Shown in pieces: positions 1-38,933 of a DNA stretch of 43,272 bases (positions are counted from its first letter, which is position 1; each line of letters opens with the position of its first letter). Source of the DNA: Pseudomonadota bacterium (GTDB lineage: Bacteria > Pseudomonadota > Gammaproteobacteria > Burkholderiales > Nitrosomonadaceae); NCBI GenBank assembly GCA_018241205.1, contig JAFEEI010000021.1, forward strand, positions 8,801 to 52,072. The letters are read 5' to 3'. Position numbers and translations under genes: made by a program. The notes under the pieces were generated by a model that was not told where the DNA came from, searched no databases, and saw only the letters and a program-made list of their open reading frames with translations.

Positions 1-3000
1 CATTAAAGATTGCTCGCTGTCGATTTTTTCCATCGGTATGCGCAAGACCGATGCCACTTGTCCGGAGAGGGCATGCAGCATTCCCGCCTCTCTTTGTTCC
101 GCAGGAAGCTGGAATATTTCCTGGCAGATTTTGGTCAAGGCATTTTCTGATTTCTGATCTGCATGGCTGACTAAGCGCTCAAACCGGGGAGAATTTCCGC
201 CAGTGGGCTCAAATGCTTGCCACTTCTCCCAATCGCAATTCATTAATCCATATTGGGACAGGTCGGTGCCGAGCATTTGCGCCCAGCAATCCATCGCCTG
301 ATTGACCGTGATGGTGTTCATCCCCATCAGATTCAGATGTTTTTTCACTCCTTCACTATTCACCGCCATACCGGTTGCAATAGCGCCCCAGTTAATACTC
401 GTGCCGGCTAGCCCGGCGGCGCGGCGTTTGGCCGCCAATGCATCGAGGAAAGTATTGGCGGCGGCGTAGTTCGCTTGGCGCGCGTTGCCGATAATCGAAG
501 ACACCGACGAGAATAGAGCGAAGAAATCCAATGCATCGTTTTGTGTGCATTCATGCAGATACCAAGCGCTCAATGCTTTGGCGCGCATAACCCGGGTCAT
601 GCGTTCCGGGGTCAATTCGGCAATCGCTGCGTCATCCAGAATGGCCGCGGTATGCAATATTCCTTTCAGCGGCGGGCAAGTAGCGGAGATTTTGTCAAAT
701 AACGACTTGACTTGTGCGGCATCGGTCAAATCCGCCGCAACTGCGGTTACTTTCACATCCTTTTCCGCTAACCAGGCCAATACCGCTTTTGCCACATCAT
801 CCGAAGCGCCGCGGCGGCTAACCAGAATCAGATGTTTAGCGCCGTGCTTGGCCATCCATTTTGCTGCTTCCAGTCCAAACCCGCCGAAACCGCCGGTAAT
901 CAGATAGGCTGCATCGGCGGCAAATAATACGGATTGTTGCCGGTCAATGACCGTGATGGCGGATTTATCTTGCAGCGATAAAATCTGCACGGTATCGGTC
1001 ATTGAATGATTCCGGCCGGATAGGAAGGCAACACCTTCCGGCAGGGTCAATACCTGGACCTGCGGCAAGCTGACGATTTGCACCGTGTTGAATAAATGTG
1101 CAACGGTATACAGCAGCTGCTGAAATAACTCCGGCGCTGTGCGTGCGAGTTTTAATGCATCCAGGTGAATAAAGCTTTTTTCCAATAAGCTGACGGGTGC
1201 GTGATCAGTATTGGTTTGTGTCAGAACGATTTCATGCGTTTCCGGCAGCAGCCAGTGATCGATACCCTCCGGCTTGTGCGCATTCGTACCCCGTATCCAG
1301 GCGCGTACCGGCGCAACTTCCTGATTCTCGCCGCTGTTGTGATGATAAAGCAATGGCGAAGCGCCCAAGCAGCTGGCGACTTCCATTGCGGCTGTAGCCG
1401 CTGCGCCCAATCCGCAATCGATCAACACGGTTTCGAGAGGCGCCACCCGGGCGACATACTTCAGTGCGTAATACGCAGGTACTACTGTGGTAGCCAGAGA
1501 AGTGATCTCTTCGTTAGTGAGCTGAAATTGACCAACCGGAAATACCTTATCGGCTGCACAAACGACATGGGAAGCGATAGTGCTATCGGTCGCGAGCATG
1601 ACCAGCTCGCCGATAGTGTGGCCTGTCACCTGATTGCCGATACTGTCGATTACACCTACCGCAAAATAACCTTGTGCATCAGCATTATGGGCATCGGTAA
1701 GCTGGTAACTGGCCAAGTTGATGCATTGCAATGCCACAACGACATCACCGGTTCCGGGAACGGGCTTGGACATGGTATGAAATTCATAATGACCCGGTCT
1801 GGCTAGTTGGAACGCTGCAACGGTGTCACCGCTACGCTCGTTCGAAGGAAGCTCAATGTCATGTCTTATCCAGCGATGGACATAGCGGTCTTTTCCACGT
1901 AGAGCCACATCGTCTTCGTTGTCGTCGGACATTAATTCTTGGGTTAATAAATGAGCCGCTTGGTTTGCACTCACCGGATCCAAGTCAATCTGCGTGAAGC
2001 GAAATTGCGGGAATTCATTGAATGCCACACGCGTCAATCCGGTTAAGGTGGTTAGCGAGACATTCGTTATTTCGCCGTTGCTGCTGACCGCTTGTGCTCC
2101 CTGGGTGATGACATAAACCCGGGGCGCTTGAGCGGTATACACTTTGCCAAGCAACTGAATAATCTGTAATGCGACATTGGCGTGCTCAATTCCTGCAGGA
2201 TCGTTTGCCGCAATTTCTGTCAAACCCCATAAATAAGCAATGCCGGTGCATCCTTGGGATTTTGCTTTTAAGACGATCTGTTCCAAATAACTGAGCTCAT
2301 CCGGGTCGAGAGGCTGAATGTGATTGAATTCTTGCTGATAAACTTCGTTGATCGGCACCCGTATCACCTGATTGCCGCCGATTTCCAGTTCATTGCACAG
2401 AGTTTCGCTGGTTTCGCTAGCAGTACTGAATACCAGCCAGCAACCCTTGCGCTTCATATTCGACAGTGCTGCTTTTTTCTGCCATTGCCATGCGTATGTC
2501 CATTGCGCCAGCTGCTCACCCGGATTATTCTTTTCATTGGTCAACGCCCGGCACCGTAAGCCTGTGACTTCCGCCAGCACATGGCCGTGCTCGTCGAATA
2601 GTGTTAATTCGCCTTCAATGCTGTGTTCGTTGAGGAGGTTCAGCTTGCCGTGACACCACACGGCGTTACCCGGTTTTGCATGGTAGCTGATGCGTTTGAT
2701 TGAAACCGGCATGTAAAAATGATCTTTCTCACTGGTAGCCGCAATGAGTGACTGAAAACATCCATCCAATAGCGTGGGATGCAGGAAATAATCCGGGTAT
2801 TCAGATAACAAACCGGTATGCAACTGGATATGCGCCAACACTTCGTTGTGACCGCGTTGAAGTTGCTGAATGGTTTGAAAGTAAGGCCCATACGATAAGC
2901 CGCGCTCGTTGAGTTCCGCGTAAAGCTCACCGACATCAACCTTTTCGTTGCATCGCTGCAGGATATCCGGGCGTGCTATTATTTTCGATTCCAACACCGC

Positions 3001-6000
3001 CGGCAAAATTTTCGCCGACGCATGCAGCGTCCAATCTAACGACGTATCCTGGTAGTGACTGTGAAATGCATATTGGCCGTTTTCCGGATCGTAGCCGATA
3101 TGGGTAAACGGTTCGCTTTCATTGCCGCTCAGAATCAATGCTTGATGAAAAAATAATTGTTCTATTGCACAAGCCGTATCGCCTGTTGCCTGATTAAATG
3201 CCGCCAATCCAGCTTCCACATAAGCCGCGCCCGGCATGACAACGAGCTCATCAACCTGATGGTCGTTCAGGTAAGGCAAGAATTGCTGATTGATGGCGCC
3301 CTGCCACGCTGGTTTGGGTCCTGACAAACGGCGATCGAGCAGCGGATGCACCGGTGACCCGATGCGATCGGTGATGGATTCTTCATCCTCGTTCCAGTAG
3401 GTCTCTCTTTGCCAAGGATAGGTCGGCAATTTAACGTACATCACATCGGCTGGATACAATCGTTTCCAGTCGATTTTGCAACCGGCCGTGTACAGTCCGG
3501 CCAAAGCCATCTGGAAAGTGTGCTGCTCGGGACGGTCGCGCCGCAATGAAGTGAAGTTCTGTGGTTTGATATTGTGCTGCTGGCAACATTCCTTGATGGC
3601 GGTTGACAGCACCGGATGCGGCCCGACTTCAAGGAAAATGCGATGTCCGTCTTGCAGTAAGCTGGTCATGGCCTGCGCAAAATAAACCGGTTCACGGACG
3701 TTATTGCACCAGTACTCGGCATCGAAGCTCAAGCTGCCGGTCAATTTCCCTGTCACCGTCGAGTACAGCGGCACCTGCGGCAAGGCGGGATGCAAATCAG
3801 CCAGCGTTTGTCTGATTTCAGGTTTCAGGTGCTCCAGGAAGGCGCTGTGATAAGCCAGCTCGACTTGCAGAAAACGATTGAACTCACCCAGTCCGGTTAA
3901 ATGGGCCGAGATTTTTTCCAATCCGGCCGGATCGCCTGACAGGGTTACTTGCGCGGGGCCGTTAACCGCTGCAATCGAGACATCGCCGCTGGTTAATGTT
4001 GCAATTAACTCCGCGCAGTGTTCCATGCTGACGCCAACGGCGAGCATTTTTCCGCAACCAGCGGCTTTTTTTAGAATGCGGCTGCGTTCATAACTGACTT
4101 TGATGGCGTCTTCCAGGCTGAGCGCACCGGCAGCGTAAGCGGCGCTGATTTCTCCCAGACTATGTCCGACAATCGCGCCCGGCTCGATACCGCTGGCCCG
4201 CCACATGGCGGTTAATCCGGCTTGTACCAGGAAGTTTGCCGGTTGTGCTATTTCCGTATCGGTGATTTTCGAGTTTTGTTCATCGGCCAGCATTTCATCC
4301 AGGATTGACCATCCCGCTAATCGGCGGAAGATCGCATCGCATTCTTCTACGGTTTCCCGGTAGATGGCGTTGTTTTCATACAATTCTCTTCCCATGGCCC
4401 ACCATTGCGGCCCCATGCCGGTGTAAACGAATACCGGTTTTGCCGTTGCCTTGCTGTCGGTTTTTCCCGCAACGCCGGAGTAATCCGGTTGTTTGGTTAC
4501 GTAAGCGCTGAGCTGGTCGTACATGTTTGCCCAGGAACTGCCGATAATCGCCAGCCGGTAATCGTGATGTCCCCGGCGGCACGCCGCTGAGAAGCACAAG
4601 TCTTTTAATGTTCCTTTATAGTCGCGTGGAAACTTGTTCATCCAGGCGCGTGCGAGGTTTTGTAACGCGTGCTCACTGCGGGCGGACAGCGGCAATAGAT
4701 AGGTTTGATCCGCTGTATCCTCTTCGCGAACCGGCTTCAGAGCGGGAGGTGCATTTTCCAGAACCGCATGCGCATTGGTTCCGCCATAACCGAATGAATT
4801 GACGGCGGCGTAAATGGGTTGGGAGCCGGATTGCAATGATTCCAACCGGGTCGGTAAGCGTAAGCCCAGTTCATCAAAGGGAATATTGGGATTAGGTGTG
4901 TGTAAATTCGCTTGCGGCGGTACCTGGTGATGCGACAGGCAGAGCGATGTTTTAATGATGCCCGCGATACCGGCTGCCGCCTCCAAATGACCGATAGCGC
5001 CCTTGACGGAGCCCATCAAGCGGAATTTGGAGTGCTTGGACGGTTTGTCGATGACTTCACCCAATGCTTTGGCTTCGAGCGGATCGCCGACCGGTGTGCC
5101 GGTGCCATGGGCTTCAAAATAGCTGATTTCGTTGGTGTCGATCCCATATTTATCGCAAACTGACCGGATCAAGGCTGTTTGTGAGGCCGGATTCGGGACG
5201 GTAATGCCATTGGTTCTGCCATCCTGATTGACGCCGGTTCCCCGCACCAGCGCATAAATCGAGTCACCGTCTCTCAGCGCTGCCGACAACGGTTTCAACA
5301 CGACAACGCCGGCGCCCTCGCCGCGTCCGTAGCCGTTGGCGCTAGCGTCAAAACTTTTACTGCGTCCGTCGGGTGCAAGAAAGCCGCCTTTGCACATGGC
5401 AATCGGATATTCCGGACGCATCATGACATTGACGCCGCCAGCCAGCGCCACATCGGATTCACCGTTCCAGATGGCCTGGCACGCAAGGTGTAATGCCACC
5501 AGCGAAGACGAGCAAGCCGTATCGACACTCATACTGGGGCCGCGCAAGTCCAGAATATACGAAATGCGGTTGGAAAGGATGGTCATCGTTGAACCGACCG
5601 CAGTATGCGTACTGATCAGATCGCGATTCATTTTGCCCATCTGGGTCAGTTTATGATCGAGGGTGAACGCGCCGATGAACACGCCGGTATTGGATCCGAT
5701 CAGCGATTCATAAGGGATTCCCGCATCTTCCAAAGCTTCCCAACTGGTCTCCAGCAGCAGACGCTGCTGCGGATCTATTGATCCCGCTTCACGCGGGGTG
5801 ATACCAAAAAACAGGGCATCAAATTCATCCACCCGCTGTTGCAAGAAACCGCCTTGCTTGACGTACATTTTTCCGGGCTTACTTTGGTCGGGATCATAGA
5901 AACGCTTGAGATTCCAACGTTCCGGCGGGATGTCGACGATGGCATCGCTGCCCGTAACCAACAAATTCCAGAAGCTTTCCGGATCATGAGATCCGCCGGG

Positions 6001-6078
6001 AAAACGGCAGCCAATTCCAACCAAGGCAATGGGTTCGTAAACCGCTTTTTGGGCTGATTTTGATTTTTTCTGTTTCAT
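1..6078 (-). CDS. Type I polyketide synthase, KS-AT-DH-psiKR-ER-KR-(ACP), 3' end outside window
   Basis: A single open frame of 2026 codons runs off the left edge. It would extend and reduce an acyl chain on a tethered acyl carrier protein. Domains: ketosynthase about residues 15-440, with Cys189 in TACSSS, His324 in EAHGTGT and His364 in GHLEAAAG; acyltransferase about 540-850, with Ser640 in GHSLGE; dehydratase about 900-1180, with His940 and Asp1105 (DGCFQ); a structural pseudo-KR about 1215-1400; an enoylreductase-like domain about 1424-1715; and a ketoreductase about 1720-1900, with a GGFGGFG cofactor loop and Ser1858, Tyr1871, Asn1875. The last visible residues look like the first helix of an ACP, so the serine attachment site lies outside. 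The dehydratase motif has Glu where Gly is usual, and the ER cofactor loop is eroded (CGLGAAA), so full reduction is doubtful. The start at 6078 lies 95 bp after the monooxygenase stop, implying one operon. The product is unknown. Confidence 0.95.
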   Translation of the reverse strand, partial: MKQKKSKSAQKAVYEPIALVGIGCRFPGGSHDPESFWNLLVTGSDAIVDIPPERWNLKRFYDPDQSKPGKMYVKQGGFLQQRVDEFDALFFGITPREAGSIDPQQRLLLETSWEALEDAGIPYESLIGSNTGVFIGAFTLDHKLTQMGKMNRDLISTHTAVGSTMTILSNRISYILDLRGPSMSVDTACSSSLVALHLACQAIWNGESDVALAGGVNVMMRPEYPIAMCKGGFLAPDGRSKSFDASANGYGRGEGAGVVVLKPLSAALRDGDSIYALVRGTGVNQDGRTNGITVPNPASQTALIRSVCDKYGIDTNEISYFEAHGTGTPVGDPLEAKALGEVIDKPSKHSKFRLMGSVKGAIGHLEAAAGIAGIIKTSLCLSHHQVPPQANLHTPNPNIPFDELGLRLPTRLESLQSGSQPIYAAVNSFGYGGTNAHAVLENAPPALKPVREEDTADQTYLLPLSARSEHALQNLARAWMNKFPRDYKGTLKDLCFSAACRRGHHDYRLAIIGSSWANMYDQLSAYVTKQPDYSGVAGKTDSKATAKPVFVYTGMGPQWWAMGRELYENNAIYRETVEECDAIFRRLAGWSILDEMLADEQNSKITDTEIAQPANFLVQAGLTAMWRASGIEPGAIVGHSLGEISAAYAAGALSLEDAIKVSYERSRILKKAAGCGKMLAVGVSMEHCAELIATLTSGDVSIAAVNGPAQVTLSGDPAGLEKISAHLTGLGEFNRFLQVELAYHSAFLEHLKPEIRQTLADLHPALPQVPLYSTVTGKLTGSLSFDAEYWCNNVREPVYFAQAMTSLLQDGHRIFLEVGPHPVLSTAIKECCQQHNIKPQNFTSLRRDRPEQHTFQMALAGLYTAGCKIDWKRLYPADVMYVKLPTYPWQRETYWNEDEESITDRIGSPVHPLLDRRLSGPKPAWQGAINQQFLPYLNDHQVDELVVMPGAAYVEAGLAAFNQATGDTACAIEQLFFHQALILSGNESEPFTHIGYDPENGQYAFHSHYQDTSLDWTLHASAKILPAVLESKIIARPDILQRCNEKVDVGELYAELNERGLSYGPYFQTIQQLQRGHNEVLAHIQLHTGLLSEYPDYFLHPTLLDGCFQSLIAATSEKDHFYMPVSIKRISYHAKPGNAVWCHGKLNLLNEHSIEGELTLFDEHGHVLAEVTGLRCRALTNEKNNPGEQLAQWTYAWQWQKKAALSNMKRKGCWLVFSTASETSETLCNELEIGGNQVIRVPINEVYQQEFNHIQPLDPDELSYLEQIVLKAKSQGCTGIAYLWGLTEIAANDPAGIEHANVALQIIQLLGKVYTAQAPRVYVITQGAQAVSSNGEITNVSLTTLTGLTRVAFNEFPQFRFTQIDLDPVSANQAAHLLTQELMSDDNEDDVALRGKDRYVHRWIRHDIELPSNERSGDTVAAFQLARPGHYEFHTMSKPVPGTGDVVVALQCINLASYQLTDAHNADAQGYFAVGVIDSIGNQVTGHTIGELVMLATDSTIASHVVCAADKVFPVGQFQLTNEEITSLATTVVPAYYALKYVARVAPLETVLIDCGLGAAATAAMEVASCLGASPLLYHHNSGENQEVAPVRAWIRGTNAHKPEGIDHWLLPETHEIVLTQTNTDHAPVSLLEKSFIHLDALKLARTAPELFQQLLYTVAHLFNTVQIVSLPQVQVLTLPEGVAFLSGRNHSMTDTVQILSLQDKSAITVIDRQQSVLFAADAAYLITGGFGGFGLEAAKWMAKHGAKHLILVSRRGASDDVAKAVLAWLAEKDVKVTAVAADLTDAAQVKSLFDKISATCPPLKGILHTAAILDDAAIAELTPERMTRVMRAKALSAWYLHECTQNDALDFFALFSSVSSIIGNARQANYAAANTFLDALAAKRRAAGLAGTSINWGAIATGMAVNSEGVKKHLNLMGMNTITVNQAMDCWAQMLGTDLSQYGLMNCDWEKWQAFEPTGGNSPRFERLVSHADQKSENALTKICQEIFQLPAEQREAGMLHALSGQVASVLRIPMEKIDSEQSLM

Positions 6079-6173
6079 GTCACGTGTTCCAAAAAATTAA
6101 GCTGCTTGCTTTAACAGTATGGCTCGGGATCTGATCGGATCCGGAGTCGGAATGGATTTACCGGTGCAGCGGT

Positions 6174-7553
6174 TTAAACATGCCGCGTAGCGATTTGCAT
6201 CTGTGTGTCCGGATTGGCTTTTAAGGTCGCAAAATCCTCCGCGACGGGCATGGGCCAGCCCAATTGCCGGTACAACTTGCGCACCCGCTTGCGGAATGTC
6301 AGCCAATCGCAATAGTAGGTATGCCGGGGAGAGTCGATCATATGGATCGGCCCCCGCAAGTCGCCGTGCTCGTTCCGGGCAATTTCGAGCAGCGCGAGGT
6401 CTTGCCCGGTTTTTTGCTTCTGACTGAAGAGATAGCAAGCCACCATGGACGCGAATAGCTCGAGATGTGGAAAAACCGCAGCATTGCCTTCGTAAAATCC
6501 GAGCGTGAACAGGTTCGGGTGCTTGCGCGAGAAGCACGTCATGTAATGGCCGACGCCATGCCCTGCCCATTCGATATGTTCGGAATCAAGGTAAGGAAAT
6601 TCGGCCTTGTAACCGGTGGCAAAAATGATTTGATCGACTTCTATCGATGAGCCGTCGACGAAATGAACCATCGAGCCGTCCAATCTTTCGATATCCGGTT
6701 TGGCATGCAAATCGCCATGGGCAAAACAAGACAGGATCTCGGAGTTAAGAATCGGTTGTGTTTCAAGGATGCGATGCTGCGGTTTTTGCAATCCGTAGCG
6801 TGTCAGATCACCCAGCAGAGCGGTTAACATATGACCGAATACCCATTGCCTGAATCTGAACGGCATCCATTCGTTTTCTCGTTCGTAAATATCCGCCGGT
6901 TTTCCAAAAATCACCTTGGGAAGAAAGTGATAGCCCCGGCGCATACTGATATAAGCGGCTTTGGCATTTCTTGCCGCTTCGGTGGCGATATCGCAACCCG
7001 AGTTGCCGGCGCCGACGATCAAGACACGCTGGTTTTTGAATTCATCCGCACCGAAGTAGTCTTTGGAATGGCGCTGCCAGCCGGTAAATGTTCCCGGAAT
7101 TTCCGGGTAGCTGGGATTCCAGTGCATGCCGGAAGCGCAAATTACACTGCGGTAAATCCGTGTCTGGCTATTGACCTTGACCAGCCAGTAGCCATCTTTG
7201 GGTTCAACTTTTTCGACTGCACTGGAAAAATAAATGTATTTTTTCAGATCATAGGCATCAGCAAAATTGTGCAAATAAGCAAGGATCTCGTCGCGTCGGG
7301 GAAAATCAGCGCCCGGCGGAAAAGGAAGCCCCATAAACCCGGATTCCGTTCTCGATGAGACAAAGTGCGTGTGTTCGTATACCGGTGTGCCGGGATTTTC
7401 AATGTCCCAAAGCCCGCCAATATCCTTATGGCGTTCAAAAACATCAAATGGCAAATCCAACGCCAAAAGCGCGCGCGCCTGTGCAAGCCCGGACGGGCCG
7501 GCGCCTATGATGCAGTGTTTATCCTTACAGTCGATAATTGTTGTTTCGTTCAT
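6174..7553 (-). CDS. Flavin-containing monooxygenase (class B FMO-like)
   Basis: A 459-residue FAD- and NADPH-dependent oxygenase. It shows the FAD loop GAGPSG near the N terminus, the FMO signature FxGxxxHxxxY (FTGWQRHSKDY), the NADPH loop GAGNSG directly after it, and a later ATGY motif; all are in the family's usual order. No signal peptide is seen, so it should be cytoplasmic. An upstream in-frame ATG at 7586 would add 11 residues, but the ATG at 7553 is preceded by AAGGAG at ideal spacing and is preferred. It is the first gene of a probable two-gene operon with the polyketide synthase, so oxidation of the polyketide or of an amine or ketone linked to it is a fair guess. The actual substrate (N-, S- or Baeyer-Villiger-type oxidation) cannot be read from the sequence. 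Confidence 0.92.
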   Translation of the reverse strand: MNETTIIDCKDKHCIIGAGPSGLAQARALLALDLPFDVFERHKDIGGLWDIENPGTPVYEHTHFVSSRTESGFMGLPFPPGADFPRRDEILAYLHNFADAYDLKKYIYFSSAVEKVEPKDGYWLVKVNSQTRIYRSVICASGMHWNPSYPEIPGTFTGWQRHSKDYFGADEFKNQRVLIVGAGNSGCDIATEAARNAKAAYISMRRGYHFLPKVIFGKPADIYERENEWMPFRFRQWVFGHMLTALLGDLTRYGLQKPQHRILETQPILNSEILSCFAHGDLHAKPDIERLDGSMVHFVDGSSIEVDQIIFATGYKAEFPYLDSEHIEWAGHGVGHYMTCFSRKHPNLFTLGFYEGNAAVFPHLELFASMVACYLFSQKQKTGQDLALLEIARNEHGDLRGPIHMIDSPRHTYYCDWLTFRKRVRKLYRQLGWPMPVAEDFATLKANPDTQMQIATRHV

Positions 7554-8664: not shown

Positions 8665-11109
8665 TTAAGCCGCTGCGGAAGGAAGCAGCCATTTGATCAG
8701 CGCAACTTTTATGACATCGTTAACCGCGAGACAAGAAACCATCGCATAAGTGAAAATTGCGAGTGTCTGCTGCCAGGGTAGTGCTTTGAGTCCGGGTAAT
8801 TGCAAGAATGTCAGGGCAGTGCCGATGCAAGTAACCGAGATCAAAGCCATGAGGAGCATCCTGTTGGGCATGGTGGCCCAGAAAAAATGACGTTCCCGGG
8901 CTGACACAATAGAGAATACAGCAAAGTAGAACAGCGTCAGGAAACTGAAGGTATGCAGGGCATTATCGTTGTCCGCCAGGCCGAGATGCATCCAGCCAAA
9001 CCACAGAAGCATAAGCGACTCGATCGCCATGGCGATGCCCAGCACTACCGCTAATGTGATCGACCCTCCGATGTTCCATGTTTCCGGTTGCCTGGATGGG
9101 CGCACATCATCGGTAGCCAGCGCAATCTTGGCGAAATCCATTAGAAATACCAGCAATAGCATGGCAAAGGCGGAGATGACGAATTTTCCGGTTACTACGA
9201 ACGCCACGGCCACAAAGGCAGCTTTCAGGATCGTCCGGCTGATCTTGTTAATGATCCACGTCAGAATGCGCTGGTAGATCATGCGGCCCTGTTCGATCAA
9301 TGCGACGATATTGGTCAAACCGGGCTCGGTCAGTATCACGCTGGCGGCATGCTTAGCCACGTCAGTTGCGGTGCTGACCGCAATGCCAACCTCGGCCTGG
9401 CGCAGCGCAGGCGCATCGTTTATGCCATCCCCCGTCATGCCGGTCACATGCCCGGCAGCTTGCAGACATTGCACCACCCGATATTTATCTTCCGGGAAAA
9501 CCTCGGCAAAACCATCGGCATGCGTTAACAAGTTGGCCGCTTCTTCGTTACTGCTTTGGGTATCTGCGTTTCTCAGATCGGTTACGCGCCGGATGTGGGC
9601 AAGTCCGATCCCGCGCGCGATTTCTCCAGCCACCGCCAGCGCGTCGCCGGTGAGCATTTTCACCGAGACGCCGAGGTCGCGCAGTGTGGCGATGAGTTGC
9701 CTGGCATCCGGACGGGGTGGATCGTACAGAGTGACCAATCCGATCAAAACCGGTGTCGCCGTTACCGGACCATAAGCCACGGCCAGTGTGCGGTATCCCG
9801 TGCGGGCGGATTCCGCGACACGAGTTTCCAGTGCCTCGATTTCCTCCGGGTGCAGTTTGCAGGCTTGTGCAATGGTTCGCACCGCACCTTTCATTGCGCG
9901 AAACTGCTGCCCGTTCTGTTCTATGACGGCTTCAGTCCGCTTGGTTGCAGCATCGAAAGGAATGAAGGAAATGGGAGTGATCATGGGTATGCGGTCAAGA
10001 ATCCGCCGTTTCTTCGCTTCAGCCAGAAATGCCAAATCGATCGGATCCTGGTTAGCTTCTTGCGAAGCGAGCGCGCCGACAAATAATACGTCGGATTCCG
10101 CCGCTTCTTGCCAAGGAATGATGCCGGTGATCGCCAGTTGATTTAGGGTGATCGTGCCCGTTTTGTCGACGCAGAGCACGGTCATCGTGGCCGCATCTTC
10201 CGCTGCACTGAGACGGGTAACCAATACACCGTGCTTCTCCAATTCCTTCGCTCCCATCGCCATGCTGACCGTGAACATGACGGGCAAGGCAACCGGTATC
10301 GCGCTCATCAACAGGACGAGCATGAGCGGAATGATTTCGATCAGGGGCGCATCGCGGATCAACGACAGGCCGAATACCAATAAGAGCACCGCAGCAACAA
10401 TCACGAAAAGCCACCGGACTATTTTGGCTATGACGGTTTCGATATGAAGCTTTGATTGCGCTTGCTGCACCAATTCCGTCGTGCGGCCGAAGAAGGTTCT
10501 CGCGCCGGTCAGGATGACTACGCCGTTGCCCTCGCCGTAACGGACGATAGCTCCGGATGTCACGACTTCACCCTGAGCTTTGTCGATATTCTGCGATTCA
10601 CCGGTCAAAGCCGACTGGTCGATGCTCAATGTTCCGGAGAGAAGTTTGATGTCCGCCGGAATGATGTCGCCGGGACGCATGCGGACAATATCGCCTGGAA
10701 CCAGCTCGCGCGCAGGACAAATTTGCCAGTTACCTGCGCGCAGCACCCGGGTGCTGACTTGCAAACGCTGCCGCAAGGCTGCCACCACGCCAGCAGTCCG
10801 GCGCTCCTGCAAAAAGCTCAATACCGCATTGACGACCAGCAGCGCGCCGACGACAACCAGATCCGAATATTTACCCAGAAGCAGCGACAAAATCATGATC
10901 AATTCCAGCATCCAAGCCGAAATACCCCAGAATTTGCGGAGAAACATCAGAACCGGATGATCTTTCTGCTCGACGACTTCGTTATAACCATACTCTTTCC
11001 TGCGATTAACTACCGCAGCCGATGACAAACCTTCCTCGGGATTAACATCAAGTGCTGAAAGTGTCGCGGAAACGGACAAGGAAGCAATGTCGGGGTTGGC
11101 AGTAGTCAT
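8665..11109 (-). CDS. P3A-type proton-translocating P-type ATPase
   Basis: An 814-residue integral membrane pump of the plasma-membrane H+-ATPase type, expected to expel protons using ATP. Seen: the actuator loop with LTGES at 168-172, the transmembrane-4 motif PVALP at 272-276, the phosphorylation motif DKTGT with Asp315 (DKTGTITLN; Ile replaces the usual Leu), the hinge TGDGIND, and several membrane helices at about 60-100, 230-285 and in the last 170 residues. The length fits the bacterial and archaeal proton-efflux P-ATPases. The first helices carry no heavy-metal-binding domain, which argues against a copper or zinc pump. No clear ribosome site precedes the ATG. An HPP-family gene lies just upstream on the same strand, 52 bp away. 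The ion is inferred from family resemblance. Confidence 0.9.
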   Translation of the reverse strand: MTTANPDIASLSVSATLSALDVNPEEGLSSAAVVNRRKEYGYNEVVEQKDHPVLMFLRKFWGISAWMLELIMILSLLLGKYSDLVVVGALLVVNAVLSFLQERRTAGVVAALRQRLQVSTRVLRAGNWQICPARELVPGDIVRMRPGDIIPADIKLLSGTLSIDQSALTGESQNIDKAQGEVVTSGAIVRYGEGNGVVILTGARTFFGRTTELVQQAQSKLHIETVIAKIVRWLFVIVAAVLLLVFGLSLIRDAPLIEIIPLMLVLLMSAIPVALPVMFTVSMAMGAKELEKHGVLVTRLSAAEDAATMTVLCVDKTGTITLNQLAITGIIPWQEAAESDVLFVGALASQEANQDPIDLAFLAEAKKRRILDRIPMITPISFIPFDAATKRTEAVIEQNGQQFRAMKGAVRTIAQACKLHPEEIEALETRVAESARTGYRTLAVAYGPVTATPVLIGLVTLYDPPRPDARQLIATLRDLGVSVKMLTGDALAVAGEIARGIGLAHIRRVTDLRNADTQSSNEEAANLLTHADGFAEVFPEDKYRVVQCLQAAGHVTGMTGDGINDAPALRQAEVGIAVSTATDVAKHAASVILTEPGLTNIVALIEQGRMIYQRILTWIINKISRTILKAAFVAVAFVVTGKFVISAFAMLLLVFLMDFAKIALATDDVRPSRQPETWNIGGSITLAVVLGIAMAIESLMLLWFGWMHLGLADNDNALHTFSFLTLFYFAVFSIVSARERHFFWATMPNRMLLMALISVTCIGTALTFLQLPGLKALPWQQTLAIFTYAMVSCLAVNDVIKVALIKWLLPSAAA

Positions 11110-24282: not shown

Positions 24283-24933
24283 CTAACTCAGCACACTGAC
24301 ATCATCCCAGCTAATTTGGCCGGGCAGCACACCGACCAGCGTAATTGATACATCGGAACCAAAGTTTACGACGAGATCTGAGTCCTCATAATGCGCATCG
24401 GTAATAAAACTCTTCAGATGATCCACAGAAGTTAAACCTAAACCTGTATCAAATTTTAGCGAATCGTGTTCCGATGAGTGAAAGTCTTCAATGCGCAAAT
24501 GCGCCGCTTCGCGGATGACAAAGTCATCGGCGCCGTGTCCACCGAAGGAGTCTTCACCGCCACGGACGGCAATATGATCGTCACCATCCGATGGTGCAAA
24601 GGAAAGTTCTTCTTCAAATTTGAAGTGAGGACCGACCTCAGTTACATCCATCAAACCGAACCATTGCTCGGACACACGCAAATAAAGACCATCGCCATCC
24701 GCATTCGCGTAGCGGGTTCTTTCCATGCCAAAGGGATTTTCCTCGGTACGCACGACTTCGCTTCCATCCACCGTATAGGTTTCGCTGTGGTCGTCGTCGA
24801 TCGATTTGGGTTTCAGCACACCATCCTCCATTTCAAATACGGCCGTTACCTTGCCGCCCGTGATCGTGAACTTGAAAGCTTTGTGCTCGTGTGCCGACGA
24901 ATCATCATGCGAGTCGTCATGTCCTGAGCTCAT
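24283..24933 (-). CDS. Small acidic RTX/hemolysin-type calcium-binding secreted protein
   Basis: 216 residues, very rich in Asp, His and Ser at the N terminus (HDDSHDDSSAHEH). The middle is beta-rich; the C-terminal part has SFGGHGADDFVIRE, then IEDFHSSEHDSLKFDTGLG and a beta-strand end, like the last RTX repeat and secretion region of serralysin-type proteins. Strong AAGGAG ribosome site. No N-terminal signal peptide, so it is probably exported in one step by a type I system; no exporter is encoded here. It starts 87 bp after the stop of the cupredoxin-propeller gene on the same strand and may be cotranscribed. The His/Asp-rich head could bind metal; its function is unknown. Confidence 0.75.
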   Translation of the reverse strand: MSSGHDDSHDDSSAHEHKAFKFTITGGKVTAVFEMEDGVLKPKSIDDDHSETYTVDGSEVVRTEENPFGMERTRYANADGDGLYLRVSEQWFGLMDVTEVGPHFKFEEELSFAPSDGDDHIAVRGGEDSFGGHGADDFVIREAAHLRIEDFHSSEHDSLKFDTGLGLTSVDHLKSFITDAHYEDSDLVVNFGSDVSITLVGVLPGQISWDDVSVLS

Positions 24934-25020: not shown

Positions 25021-26856
25021 TTAACGGATCGGATTTTGTTGCGCCGGGATCAGTTGATTGCGCCATTCTGCGGGCAGATTCTGCACCCAGCCGTTATAAA
25101 CCAGCGGAATCGGTAGAATGCCTTGCCCGCCCATGCCGGGATTGGCTACGATGACGTCATCCCGCGCTGTGGTGCTTGCGGCAAAAAGCCCGACCTGACC
25201 TGCGATCCTGGCGTCAGATGGATCACCGTCGCCATTGGGATCAGGATCTACGACCAGCATCCGGTTTGAAAATTTACTCGTGACATAGGCATAATAACCG
25301 CCGCCTTTCTTGGCGCCATACTGCACACCATGACAACCGGGATCGCATGGCAGCATGACAACCACTTCATCGGTTGTCGCCAGATTGGGCCGCGTATCGA
25401 CGATGGTGATGGTACCGGTCAATGTGTTCGCCGTAACCATGTTTTTCCCGTCCGGCGAAACCGGAGTTTGAATCGGTAATGCGCCGACAGGCCCGGAAAT
25501 CGCTCCGGATACGGGATTGTAATGTTCGATCAGGTTGATATGCTTGATAACGGTATGCGTTACCATATCGACCGCCGTGATGGTGCTATCCAGCAAATTA
25601 GCGACGTAATATTTGCTGGCATCCGGCATCATGCCGGTGGCCAGCGGATGGCTGAAGGGTCCGCTCACCGGCAAAATGGCCTCGATACGATTGGTTCTGA
25701 AATTATATTGCGTGGTATCGCCGCTCAACACATTCGGTGTCACCATGGTCTTGCCGTCATGGCTCATCCAGTGCGCATGCGCGTTGCCGCGGCCGATATC
25801 CACCCGGCGCAACACCTGAGTGGCCAATGGACTCAGCTCCATCACGGAATCGGTGCGGGTATCGCCATTATTGGTAATATGCAGTCTATCCGTATCGGTC
25901 AGCGTCATCACATGCGCGGGTGCTTCACCGACGGATACGTTACGGATCAGTGCGCCGGTTTTACGGTCATAGACCGTCAGTTTTTTGTCAAACCATTGTG
26001 TCACGTAAATCACATTCTGATCCCTGTCCGTCCACATGTTATGCGGATTGTTCATTTTGATCGAGGGCAGCGCCACTTTGCGCGTAACTTGCCACGTGTT
26101 GCCGTCAACCGCCGTTACTGTGCCCGGTTTTTCTTTTCCCGCGGTCATTTCAAACTGCGTAGCTGCCCAAATTTCACCGATCGCAGGTGCCGCCGGATTT
26201 TGCAAAAGCGCTAGCGCAATATCATTGCCATAACGCGCATTCAGCACGGCAGGCAAATTGACAACGCCGATGTCGACACGCACGTCAACGTTCGGATAGG
26301 TGATATGCCACGGGGTATTTTTCGCATAATCCTGCCAGTTGGCGGGATTGGTCGCGATGAAGAAAGTACGCAACAAACGCGTCGCCAGATCGCTGCTGCT
26401 GGGAACGGTGATGCCATTGATCAAACTGAGCGAAGACCCCAGATCGAGACCGCCGGTAGCCGGATCATCGACGATCACGGCACCGAACATATAGGGATGA
26501 ATACTGCACGTAAACACATATAATCCCGGCGTGGTCAGCGTCAGACTATCGCCGCCTTTCTTCGGCTCGGTATTGAACGGCATACCGGCTGCGCCGGTTG
26601 GATAGATCAAGCTGCTTCTGGTATGTACGGTGTTCGAATTACCGGAGAAATTGACCCGCACACCCGGTGCAGCAATGGCAATCGAACGGTTGCCTGCGAT
26701 CGCCGCTCCGGTATCAAACCAGCGCCCCGGAATATCGGTCAACGCAAAATTGACCTGACTGCCGCCGGCAAACACGGTATTTGCCGATAAAACCGAGGCT
26801 GCAGCGCAATAAAAAACAGCATTTGCGATCTTTGCGACGATTGATTTTTCAAACAT
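25021..26856 (-). CDS. Periplasmic cupredoxin-beta-propeller fusion protein
   Basis: 611 residues with a signal peptide (cleavage near NTVFA). About 31-132 is a cupredoxin with all four type 1 copper ligands in order: His78 (NTVH), then Cys117, His120 and Met123 in CSIHPYM. About 225-575 is a YVTN/YncE-like propeller with blades of 45-50 residues. Several blades have a His near the start of a strand: His272 (NPHN), His315 (PAHV), His360/362 (NAHAH), His403 (FSHP) and His509 (CDPGCHG). Nitrous oxide reductase also pairs a His-rich propeller with a cupredoxin, but in the opposite order and with different copper-ligand spacing, so it is not NosZ. Electron transfer or copper handling in the periplasm is inferred. 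The ribosome site AGAGAGG precedes the ATG. The gene faces DUF6502 across a repeat-bearing promoter region. Confidence 0.85.
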   Translation of the reverse strand: MFEKSIVAKIANAVFYCAAASVLSANTVFAGGSQVNFALTDIPGRWFDTGAAIAGNRSIAIAAPGVRVNFSGNSNTVHTRSSLIYPTGAAGMPFNTEPKKGGDSLTLTTPGLYVFTCSIHPYMFGAVIVDDPATGGLDLGSSLSLINGITVPSSSDLATRLLRTFFIATNPANWQDYAKNTPWHITYPNVDVRVDIGVVNLPAVLNARYGNDIALALLQNPAAPAIGEIWAATQFEMTAGKEKPGTVTAVDGNTWQVTRKVALPSIKMNNPHNMWTDRDQNVIYVTQWFDKKLTVYDRKTGALIRNVSVGEAPAHVMTLTDTDRLHITNNGDTRTDSVMELSPLATQVLRRVDIGRGNAHAHWMSHDGKTMVTPNVLSGDTTQYNFRTNRIEAILPVSGPFSHPLATGMMPDASKYYVANLLDSTITAVDMVTHTVIKHINLIEHYNPVSGAISGPVGALPIQTPVSPDGKNMVTANTLTGTITIVDTRPNLATTDEVVVMLPCDPGCHGVQYGAKKGGGYYAYVTSKFSNRMLVVDPDPNGDGDPSDARIAGQVGLFAASTTARDDVIVANPGMGGQGILPIPLVYNGWVQNLPAEWRNQLIPAQQNPIR

Positions 26857-26926: not shown

Positions 26927-27010
26927 TTGTGTGATATTTTCCCGCACACGCGGCACTATACGTGGGAGAAAATCCCATGCCAATGAATTTGTGTGATATT
27001 TTCCCACATT
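26927..27010. promoter_or_regulatory. Three operator-like repeats in the divergent promoter region
   Basis: TTGTGTGATATTTTCCC occurs perfectly at 26927-26943 and 26989-27005, 62 bp apart (close to six helical turns), each followed by RCA. Between them, at 26961-26979 on the opposite strand, lies a third relative (GGGATTTTCTCCCAC; 12 of 15 matches). They sit 70 to 140 bp from both start codons, as expected for a regulator of one or both genes. The likely binder is the DUF6502 protein or an unlinked factor. Confidence 0.6.
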
Positions 27011-27068: not shown

Positions 27069-27932
27069 ATGCATGGCATGCATCCAACCAATTCCACCTC
27101 CTCACCTGCGCTGATCACCGCGTTGCGCCGGGTGCTGCGCCCCTTTGTCAAGTTGATGCTGGCGAAAGGGATTACCTATCCGTTCCTGGCAGAAATGCTG
27201 AAAGATTTATTTGTCAAAGTTGCGGAAAACGACTTCAAAATTGACGGAAAATCTTCCAGCGACAGTCACTTGAGCTTGCTCACCGGTATCCATCGCAAAG
27301 ACATCAAACGCTTGCGCTATGATTACTGTTCGGATGCCGAAACCATCCCGCAAGCGGTATCGCTCGGTGTACGGCTGGTCAATTTGTGGACCACGGATCC
27401 TCGCTACCTGGACGAAAACAATCAACCCAAGCGACTACCGAGGTTTTTCAAAGAAGGAGGCGATATTTCTTTTGAAGGGCTGGTTGCCGGCGTCAGCTGC
27501 GATATCCGTTCGCGCGTGGTGCTGGACGAATGGCTCAGGCTCGGCATTGCCCACTTCGATGAGGAAAATCGCGTCTGTCTCAATACGGCAGCGTTTATAC
27601 CGGCACACGGCTTTGACGAAAAAGTTTTTTATTTCGGCCATAACGTGCATGACCATGCGGCAGCCGCAACCAGCAATCTGCTCGGCCAAGCTCAACCGTT
27701 TCTGGAACGCAGCGTGTACTACGACGGATTAAGTGCGGATTCCGTCAAAACACTCGCGGAGAAATCCGAACAACTGGGCATGGAAGCGTTGCTCGCCATC
27801 AATAAAATCGCCATGGAGCTGGAAAAAAACGATGCGCAAAAGAACGAGCCCAGGCAGCGCATGACCTTCGGCATCTATTATTACAGCGAAGCGGTGGAGC
27901 CGGGAAGAAGCAGTGAAAAAAAAGATACTTGA
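27069..27932 (+). CDS. DUF6502-family protein, possible DNA-binding regulator
   Basis: 287 residues, cytoplasmic. The first 80 residues (LRRVLRPFVKLMLAKGITY, then LSLLTGIHRKDIKRLR) look like a winged-helix or helix-turn-helix region, and the rest is mixed with no catalytic motif I can name. It matches the DUF6502 family, which is often next to a DUF5666 protein gene, as here. Several upstream ATGs are close together, and there is no strong ribosome site. It is transcribed away from the cupredoxin gene, and the operator-like repeats lie 60-140 bp upstream, so autoregulation and control of the cupredoxin gene is a fair hypothesis. Its frame is intact, although the genes after it are broken. Confidence 0.75.
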   Translation: MHGMHPTNSTSSPALITALRRVLRPFVKLMLAKGITYPFLAEMLKDLFVKVAENDFKIDGKSSSDSHLSLLTGIHRKDIKRLRYDYCSDAETIPQAVSLGVRLVNLWTTDPRYLDENNQPKRLPRFFKEGGDISFEGLVAGVSCDIRSRVVLDEWLRLGIAHFDEENRVCLNTAAFIPAHGFDEKVFYFGHNVHDHAAAATSNLLGQAQPFLERSVYYDGLSADSVKTLAEKSEQLGMEALLAINKIAMELEKNDAQKNEPRQRMTFGIYYYSEAVEPGRSSEKKDT

Positions 27933-36824: not shown

Positions 36825-38933
36825 TTAGAATTCTTCCCATTCATCTCCGCCACCGGCTGCAACTTTACGCGGTTGGGCTGACGCAGTTTCAACATTTACT
36901 TCAGTTTTCATCGCAGCTTTTTTGGCCGCAGGGCCGCGATTCAGCAACTTCGCTACTGTAGCAGGACGATTGCTTCTTTTAACCACCATTGTTGATTCCG
37001 AGCGGGTTCTCGATAATTTGAAGGCGTTAATTGCTTGCGTTAATGCTTGCGCTTGTTCCTGCATCGATTCCGCTGCTGCTGCCGCTTCTTCCACCAAGGC
37101 AGCATTTTGTTGCGTCACTGAATCCATTTGGGTTACCGCTTGATTGACTTGCTCGATACCGGAGCTTTGTTCTTGCGATGCCGCCGAGATCTCGCTCATG
37201 ATGTCAGTCACGCGTTTCACGGCAGTGACGATTTCATTCATGGTGGCGCCCGCTTCATCAACCAGGCGCGTACCGTCTTCCACTTTCGCTACAGAATCAC
37301 TGATCAGTTCCTTGATTTCTTTTGCCGCTGCAGCTGAACGTTGCGCCAATGTACGCACTTCGGTCGCTACCACCGCAAATCCACGGCCTTGTTCACCGGC
37401 ACGTGCTGCTTCAACCGCAGCATTTAAAGCCAGGATATTGGTTTGGAAGGCAATACCATCAATCACGCTGATAATGTCGACAATTTTTTTCGAGCTTTCA
37501 TTGATCGAGCTCATGGTTTGCACCACTTGTCCAACCACTTCACCGCCTTTCATTGCAATTTGCGAAGCACCCACAGCCAATTGGTTCGCTTGGCGGGCAT
37601 TATCCGCATTTTGTTTGACTGTCGATGTCAATTCTTCCATCGAAGATGCGGTTTCTTCCAGGCTGGATGCTTGTTCTTCCGTACGTTGGCTCAAGTCTGA
37701 GTTGCCGGATGCAATCTCTCCCGATGCTGTTGTGATCTGATCGGTTCCCATGCGTACTTTGTCTACCAGATCGATCAAATACTCATTCATGGTTTTCAGT
37801 GCTTGCAATAATCGGCCGGTTTCATTTGTTGAAGTAACTTCAATTTGTTTGGTGAGATCGCCCGCCGCTATGGCATTGGCGATATTGATCGCTTCCCGCA
37901 TCGGCTGTGTGATACTGCGCACGATAAAGACCGCGAACATAATCGCAAAAGTCAGTAAAGCCGCTATTACGCCAACCATAAAATAAATTGTCTGTTTTAG
38001 ATTTCCCTCGCGGATATGCAGCACTTGCGTCAAATTGTCGGCAGCACTGGAATTGTATGCATAGATGGCATCAATGGTGCGTGTGTACTCGGAAAAATAT
38101 TCATTTGAAGGCAGTTTTAATTCCTTTGCTTGTAATAGCTCTTGCGTTGTCATGAGCAAGGTCTTGTTGATCAGCGCCTTTACCTCGTTACCTTTCGCTT
38201 CCAGAGCAGCTTTCGTTTTTGGATCGAACTGTACTGCTTTGTCGATATTGCGCATAAAATCCGACAAGAACAGATTGACATTGCTTAACAGGCCCGCCAG
38301 CTTAGTGCGTCCTTCGTCATTTATACTTCCCGCGGTTAGGAAAGCTGTACCAGCTGCACGCATTTGTCCGATATTTTCCGCCAATCTAGGCGCGTTTAGC
38401 ATCACTGCATTCACCATGAAATAAGTGTTTTTGACTGAATCCAGCAACAGATCGGATTCAACGAGTATTTCCTCGCTCAAAAGCATCAGTTCTTGAACTA
38501 TTTTGGTATGCCGTGCTGTGCTTTCCGGAGCTTTGAGCTGACGCGCAAGAACGGCTTGCTGTATTTCTGTGATGCGCTGTTTTTCAGCTGACCAAAATGA
38601 CACATTTTGAGAGGATATATTTGCTTCTTTGAGCTTGGTGTCAACTAAATTGATGGCTTTGTTCAGCTCGTTCTGCGTTTCTGATAAGCGACTGGCTGCG
38701 GATTCATTGCCGTTAAGTAATGCAGCAGATAGCGCGCGATGTTGTTGAGTGAATTGCACCACTTTCTGTAGCGCAATGACTGGTTGTGTACCCGCAGCTT
38801 CCCGTTTTGTGGTATCGAGTTCGGCGATCACTGTGTTAATGTAGAGTGCTGCCGGTACTGCCGCCATGAGCATTAAAAATGCTGTCAGGATCGTGAGTTT
38901 CTGTGGCATATTCATGCGATTTAATAGCAACAT
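36825..38933 (-). CDS. Methyl-accepting chemotaxis protein
   Basis: 702 residues. Membrane helices at about 12-34 and 314-337 bound a periplasmic, mostly helical sensing domain of roughly 280 residues. A HAMP domain follows (about 338-390, [20 protein letters not shown]), then the long signalling coiled coil with the conserved hairpin [20 protein letters not shown]. The protein ends in DEWEEF, which resembles the xWxxF tail that docks CheR and CheB on E. coli receptors, separated by a Lys/Ala-rich linker. It should signal through CheA/CheW to the flagella; no other che gene is nearby. GGAG lies eight bases before the ATG. Its ligand is unknown. Confidence 0.95.

Follow-up and report, generated by a model that had tools for sequence, protein, structure and literature searches.

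Histidine sets on the axes of beta-propellers hold metals in nitrous oxide reductase (NosZ) and in the carotenoid oxygenases. Among the copper proteins, pseudoazurin and amicyanin are small free carriers, and the multicopper oxidases (MCOs) are recognised by the motifs HxHG, HxH, HxxHxH and HCHxxxHxxxGM. One enzyme of the latter type, the MCO with a C-terminal cupredoxin from Nitrosopumilus maritimus (9cck), reportedly carries out hydroxylamine chemistry. PMC5960693 describes the enzyme for the NO-to-nitrite step of ammonia-oxidising bacteria as uncharacterised, and would expect a required NO-oxidising enzyme throughout these bacteria. Archaeal hydroxylamine oxidation is described as unsettled in PMC13003922, and the lactonase-type NosZ (L-NosZ) is treated in PMC11033732. 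In the present study, we analysed a stretch of 43,272 nucleotides (the window) from Nitrosomonas, in which one gene of the minus strand encodes a cupredoxin fused to a propeller. The original prediction had found this protein of interest if the host handled nitrogen oxides, and the relevance of the host to nitrogen chemistry was borne out by the presence of amoA in the same genome. We propose, at about even chances, that nitrifying microbes secrete this protein as a copper oxidoreductase, with a histidine site of the propeller passing electrons to the type 1 copper of the cupredoxin.

The gene (25021..26856, minus strand) is an open frame of 611 residues with an ATG start and has full-length relatives. 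Residues 1-31 (26764..26856, minus strand) have the appearance of a signal peptide, with a hydrophobic leader and a pLDDT below 50 in the model, and from the look of this leader the protein is predicted to be secreted. The cupredoxin domain follows at about residues 33-133 (26458..26760, minus strand). It was recognised through phmmer, which matched it to pseudoazurin, amicyanin and one NirK chain (for the most part at weak E-values), and through the type 1 copper ligands H78, C117, H120 and M123. The last three stand in the loop C-S-I-H-P-Y-M, so that the His, Cys, His, Met set with the C-x2-H-x2-M loop expected of a type 1 copper cupredoxin can be read in the sequence. C117, H120 and M123 were found in 114 of 114 distinct aligned rows and H78 in 113, the remaining row having a gap; that the domain carries a type 1 electron-transfer copper is predicted with near certainty. 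A seven-bladed YVTN-type beta-propeller was assigned to residues 225-585 (25102..26184, minus strand) from the strands of the structure model, the Foldseek match to 1l0q and the TIGR02276 model, which scored 37.3 bits over a cut-off of 27.85, no individual stretch being significant by itself. With this score and seven blades, the domain falls among the YVTN beta-propellers.

The fusion of a cupredoxin with a full type 1 set to a propeller had been foreseen by the original prediction and was confirmed by TIGR02276, by phmmer and by ligands that are invariant save for the one gap at H78. All of the residues that it named (H78, C117, H120, M123, H272, H315, H360/362, H403 and H509) were found at the positions given. 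It had also suggested that the protein may be a periplasmic copper enzyme or electron-transfer protein not yet described, the last point in agreement with our searches, since no curated family of Pfam or NCBIfam matched the 611-residue protein in full length at its cut-off. Pfam returned YNCE only, below threshold, and no NCBIfam model other than TIGR02276 reached its cut-off in this protein or in the longer relatives tested. The model for hydrazine synthase beta (NF052340) gave 31.9 bits against a cut-off of 560, which places the protein outside that family. In addition, no paper describing the copper family was found in the open-licence literature, a scope short of all literature.

For the conservation of the propeller residues, a homologue scan of a species-genome collection gave 215 related stretches; the 80 best of these, spread over 78 loci, were used. 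The alignment grew from 84 to 95 and then to 115 rows, and the counts refer to 114 distinct rows (115 aligned less one repeat), the window included, with identity down to 38%. These counts carry two biases: the peptide seeds of the scan contain H272, H360 and H362, and 12 of the added rows had been selected by the motif surrounding H272. The last step consisted of 20 more distant rows, picked by hand, with no motif filter applied, from lower-scoring full-length matches to the profile; one of the 20 repeats an earlier row. H272 (26041..26043), residue 2 of the inner strand 271-276 of blade 1 (MNNPHNMW), and H315 (25912..25914), residue 3 of the inner strand 313-318 of blade 2 (PAHVMT), were each found in 114 of 114 rows. 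In blade 3 (NAHAHW, 25771..25779), H360 was likewise found in all 114 and H362 in 111, being replaced in three. H509 (25330..25332), at strand 508-516 of blade 6 (CDPGCHG), was kept in 113 rows with one gap. Glutamines were conserved in two further blades: Q463 (25468..25470) at the matching inner-strand place of blade 5 (114/114), and Q578 (25123..25125) in the GGQG motif of blade 7 (110/114, with four gaps). All of these codons, like those of the residues given below, lie on the minus strand. Bacterial and archaeal rows alike keep H272, H315, H360, H509, Q463 and Q578 and nearly always H362, and the five histidines are present in 20 of the 20 distant rows.

H403 (25648..25650) lies outside this conserved site. 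It was found in 62 of the 114 rows and in 2 of the 20 distant rows, being absent from the other 18, and was ruled out as a ligand on the count of 62. The original prediction had set six propeller histidines near the starts of successive blades, and it was this H403, varying freely among homologues, that fell away; the other five resisted the same check and are invariant or nearly so. They do stand at inner-strand starts, where by model strands and alignment the NosZ rows also keep conserved histidines. The run of blades had to be amended as well: histidines are borne by blades 1, 2, 3 and 6, and blades 5 and 7 have Q463 and Q578.

The same rows bear on the alternative that the protein carries electrons by its cupredoxin, with a propeller that acts just as a scaffold or docking ring and a His/Gln ring that serves the fold or a partner and holds no redox metal. 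YVTN propellers are often docking modules, the weak profile matches include hydrazine synthase beta, itself a propeller subunit, and many non-ligand Trp, Gly and Pro positions are as invariant as the propeller histidines. However, of the 11 histidines of the propeller, the five near inner-strand starts are fixed or nearly fixed and the other six vary (Fisher p = 0.002, for a grouping made post hoc), and histidine would be an unusual choice for pure structure. The varying histidines in the aligned rows are H403, H434, H439, H445, H366, H326 and H184. We regard this scaffold or docking role as rather unlikely, and the metal site as the preferred reading. Beside H509, C504 and C508 (25333..25347) probably form a disulfide. 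They occur together in 78 of 84 rows, and of the five ungapped rows that lack a cysteine four lack both; because of this joint loss in four of five rows with residues there, metal binding by the two cysteines was judged less likely than a disulfide. A separate YVTN propeller protein was observed beside a short form in locus L086 (3-1448, minus strand), with its own repeated PHN/PHG motifs and an N-terminus that is presumably DM13-like. Since PHx motifs also occur there, a lone histidine of this kind has little meaning.

The AlphaFold model of the 611-residue protein, built from 65 rows, is a confident single piece (pLDDT 92.2, pTM 0.91). Its inner strands begin at 271, 313, about 361, 404, 461 and 508, the strand list fits seven blades, and on our reading of that list the final blade is closed by the N- and C-terminal strands together. 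In the model, H272, H315, H360/H362 and H509 are placed on or beside the first residues of inner strands. On an ideal seven-ring with an assumed radius of 7-8 Å, C-alphas of neighbouring blades would be 6-7 Å apart, those of second neighbours 11-12.5 Å and those of third neighbours (H509 to H360) about 14-16 Å, and by this arithmetic one shared site for the histidines is possible. From the placement of the residues in the model, we infer that the His/Gln ring converges on the propeller axis, which it would face at one mouth. Because histidine sets on such axes hold metals in NosZ and the carotenoid oxygenases, it is fairly likely that a metal is bound at the ring, and one or two copper ions would be the most likely content. 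Among the best 50 of 1961 Foldseek matches, the propeller was covered and not the whole chain, with a TM to the query of at most 0.44; the YVTN propeller 1l0q came first, and cytochrome cd1 and hydrazine synthase beta were among them.

With such a metal in place, a small substrate would be oxidised at the ring and its electrons would pass to the type 1 copper, a proposal for which we see the chances as equally divided. In MCO-linked forms the electrons would go onward to the trinuclear copper cluster and O2, and in the short form of the window a soluble acceptor would take them. Another reading of a propeller with bound copper is copper handling, that is, extracytoplasmic Cu(I) oxidation or storage, with the MCO-linked forms being CueO- or CopA-like. 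The H-x-M pairs of blades 1-3 (H272/M274, H315/M317 and H362/M364) would suit this reading, M317 being kept in 114 of 115 rows, but the other two methionines are variable (M274 in 93 and M364 in 99 of 115 rows). The MCO parts of relatives score with CopA and CueO models, far below cut-off. Furthermore, PMC11849493 reports an archaeal MCO1 to be upregulated under copper limitation, by which membership of MCO1 in the present family is not implied. Against copper handling, neither transport nor resistance genes for copper were recognised beside the gene, and the sole transport ATPase among the window genes searched (8665-11109), with a Cation_ATPase_N domain, lies 14 kb off. Copper handling appears unlikely to us, and substrate oxidation at the ring is kept as the favoured proposal.

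Among the best 80 of the 215 stretches, the closest relatives were those of Nitrosomonas (89-91% identity) and a partial Proteobacteria bacterium record (94%). By record title, Nitrosomonas, Nitrosospira, Nitrospira/Nitrospiraceae, Nitrososphaera and Nitrosocosmicus account for 67 of the 78 loci of this set, and the other 11 lie elsewhere, Methylomirabilota, Methanoperedens, Chloroflexi, Rokubacteria and Acidobacteria among them. A profile of the copper family, with the groups again named from record titles, matched 88 of the 125 genomes searched in the window's family (76 of 99 good genomes), and the 37 genomes with no match may include some that are not ammonia oxidisers or are incomplete. 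In the window's order, 6 of 200 genomes were positive, four of them of the window's genus, its own included, and two with weak matches to the propeller only; in its phylum, the 2 positives of 398 drawn genomes were the window's own and one congener. The family of a Nitrospira genome gave 56 positives in 175 genomes, and here the copper family was carried by 38 of 61 amoA-positive genomes versus 18 of 114 amoA-negative ones (p = 7e-10, relatedness uncorrected). Incomplete genomes blur this association, and the exceptions amount to 23 amoA-positive genomes without the copper family and 18 carriers without detected amoA. The class of a Nitrosocosmicus genome gave 20 positives in 200. The amoA gene was found in at least 25 of 49 chosen host genomes, which is a lower bound because the amoA model is apparently bacterial and gave no match in some Nitrosomonas assemblies, that of N. 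europaea included. Across the groups covered by the survey, the copper family occurs mainly in nitrifiers, namely ammonia-oxidising bacteria, Nitrospira and some archaea. A scan for viral carriers gave 24 pattern matches and no relatives.

In a quick tree with a midpoint root, most short Nitrosomonas forms stand beside Nitrospira rows, and the long forms of Nitrosomonas and Nitrosospira join those of Nitrosocosmicus with a support of 93, a pattern that hints at gene transfer without being firm. A bolder idea is that of an unrecognised copper enzyme of nitrification, whose propeller would oxidise NO, hydroxylamine or HNO and whose type 1 copper, with the linked MCO where there is one, would take the electrons. 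If true, it would offer ammonia oxidisers one route among several to their missing NO-to-nitrite step, and a route common to bacteria, comammox Nitrospira and archaea through gene transfer. A nitrogen substrate for the propeller site is made less likely by the universal occurrence that PMC5960693 expects of a required NO-oxidising enzyme, as the family was not found in every genome of the window's genus. We consider such a substrate doubtful, and the nitrification enzyme as a whole is equally a long shot. The proposal of a copper oxidoreductase, with its substrate left general, does give a concrete candidate for part of the copper chemistry of nitrifiers: the family is common to ammonia-oxidising bacteria, amoA-bearing Nitrospira and archaea of a nitrifier class, shares an enzyme-like, invariant His/Gln ring and in part of its members is physically linked to MCOs.

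The gene is divergent from a DUF6502 gene (27069..27932, plus strand; Pfam PF20112, 100 bits), which encodes a probable regulator. Between the two genes, the operator-like sequence GGGAAAATATCACACAA occurs in two copies 62 bases apart, both on the minus strand. Copy 1 (26927..26943) lies between the promoter and the start codon of the copper gene, and copy 2 (26989..27005) immediately upstream of the -35-like box. The candidate promoter, TTGGCA-17-TATAGT (26955..26983, minus strand), was found by a consensus scan for sigma-70-like sites and stands between both copies; it is a weak call by itself, because 6 such sites were found in the region against 4.3 expected. The 16-base form of the motif occurs twice in the 88.6% complete genome, both times at the copper gene. 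A looser form, GGGAAANNNNYACAC, which was derived from the same loci, was matched 37 times over the 920 kb of sequence from the first 79 loci, versus about 0.9 expected at equal base frequencies, the loci being related and not independent. Of these, 36 lie in 21 DUF6502 loci, upstream of the copper gene and on the same strand, and one lies in L022; in L034, where the copper gene is duplicated in tandem, each copy has its own motif pair. DUF6502-related genes were found in 21 of the first 79 loci, and all 21 have the motif. This near exclusiveness (36/37) suggests DUF6502 as a DNA-binding regulator, which probably controls the short form in many Nitrosomonas through a putative paired operator; transcription regulation would then be the probable role of DUF6502.

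Downstream of the copper gene, after a gap of 87 bp, an acidic protein of 216 residues is encoded (24283..24933, minus strand), rich in His and Asp and RTX-like by appearance. It has relatives in 25 loci and no match in Pfam or NCBIfam. In Nitrospira loci (L037, L042 and L045 among them) the neighbours are recurrent: L042 has a SPASM radical SAM protein, DUF547 and a family 2 glycosyltransferase upstream, and DUF5666 and a Phenol_MetA_deg protein downstream, and genes of the DUF5666 and Phenol_MetA_deg clusters are also neighbours of many Nitrosomonas copies. Elsewhere in the window, a chemoreceptor with a NIT (nitrate/nitrite sensing) domain was found at 36825-38933. The first 6 kb of the window are gene-poor, with only two listed ORFs of more than 120 residues in 1-6096, from a listing that leaves out frames open beyond the window's edge. 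Ribosomal or transfer RNA was rejected as the cause, with no Rfam match in 1-6200 and no tRNA in the whole window.

The links to multicopper oxidases were found in part of the family. The 611-residue protein itself has no MCO family match and no complete motif set, and stands outside the MCOs. MCO-like sequence was observed in 12 of the first 79 loci, weakly in L024, and the other 67, the window's gene included, have none in their flanks of up to 6 kb; most loci seen show no MCO nearby. Long relatives of 918-979 residues (N. europaea, Nitrosospira, Nitrosocosmicus) have a Cu-oxidase region at their start. In split pairs, the upstream partner carries motifs 1-2 and the long chain motifs 3-4, as was read in nine of nine pairs, that is, seven of seven among the first loci (L070-L072, L075 and L077-L079) together with L092 and L099. 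From this division of motifs, each pair is a probable two-chain oxidase, whose copper cluster would need both chains by the way in which two-domain MCOs work. The class of a Nitrosocosmicus genome also gave L093, L094 and L095, where a single chain of about 1100 residues carries all four MCO motifs along with cupredoxin and propeller, Cu-oxidase domains being matched in L093 and L095. An MCO-like gene lies upstream in L060, L069, L073 and L096-L098. A single chain of MCO and propeller with 1317 residues in L073 was set aside, as it looks like two genes joined via an unresolved base, the second of them having a separate leader. The model of the N. europaea long form had a pLDDT of 83 and a pTM of 0.82, with low values at 244-255 and 292-298, in or near MCO motifs 3 and 4, and Foldseek found its N-terminal part like two-domain laccases and 9cck, the latter ranked second. 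Since some nitrifier relatives adjoin or are fuse partners of copper oxidases, the copper family may be an uncharacterised redox enzyme.

Of the known systems, NosZ is the one whose propeller invites the closest comparison. Both proteins join a propeller and a cupredoxin and have histidines at the first residues of inner strands, and the NosZ motifs NPHG, GPLH and xHG resemble NPH, PAH, AHAH and CHG of the present protein. Seven propeller-side columns hold His throughout the five ordinary NosZ rows (motifs HH, HG, PHG, PLH, GH and EPH), and we take these to be the CuZ ligands; in an eighth column, His occurs in four of these rows, or in five of six rows with L-NosZ included. The one L-NosZ row keeps six of the seven columns, and the 611-residue protein has five histidines in four blades. 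Because of this difference, a NosZ-like four-copper centre is unlikely in it on the reading of its sequence. The domain order and ligands also differ, as the original prediction had rightly observed: our protein has an N-terminal cupredoxin with one Cys in a type 1 pattern, unlike the C-terminal cupredoxin of NosZ with its CuA site of two Cys. The seven CuZ His and C-terminal CuA that define NosZ of clades I and II are both absent from it. The histidines at matching inner-strand places and the sub-threshold L-NosZ match would be explained by a variant nitrous oxide reductase whose propeller holds a CuZ-like cluster, but that match (NF052460) is 31.3 bits against a cut-off of 700, where locus L080 scores 786. 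Moreover, no nos accessory gene was found among the window genes searched. Identity with NosZ or L-NosZ was ruled out by the fewer histidines, the type 1 copper in place of CuA and this score, and even a variant reductase is highly improbable. In the profile alignment with L-NosZ several registers score alike for the pairing of blades, so we claim no homology between the two histidine sites. The YVTN propellers 1l0q, a surface-layer protein, and hydrazine synthase beta share the propeller fold and repeats of the present protein and are without a cupredoxin, and we know of no His/Gln set of this kind in either. Pseudoazurin and amicyanin have a C-x2-H-x2-M type 1 site like that of the present protein, with weak sequence matches. 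In 9cck, as in the long relatives, a cupredoxin follows the MCO, and by title and length there is no propeller, whereas the 611-residue protein of the window is without MCO domains. Two-domain (small) laccases match the MCO half of the long relatives in fold and sequence; in the present family, motifs 1-2 and 3-4 are placed on two chains, or on one chain together with the cupredoxin and the propeller.
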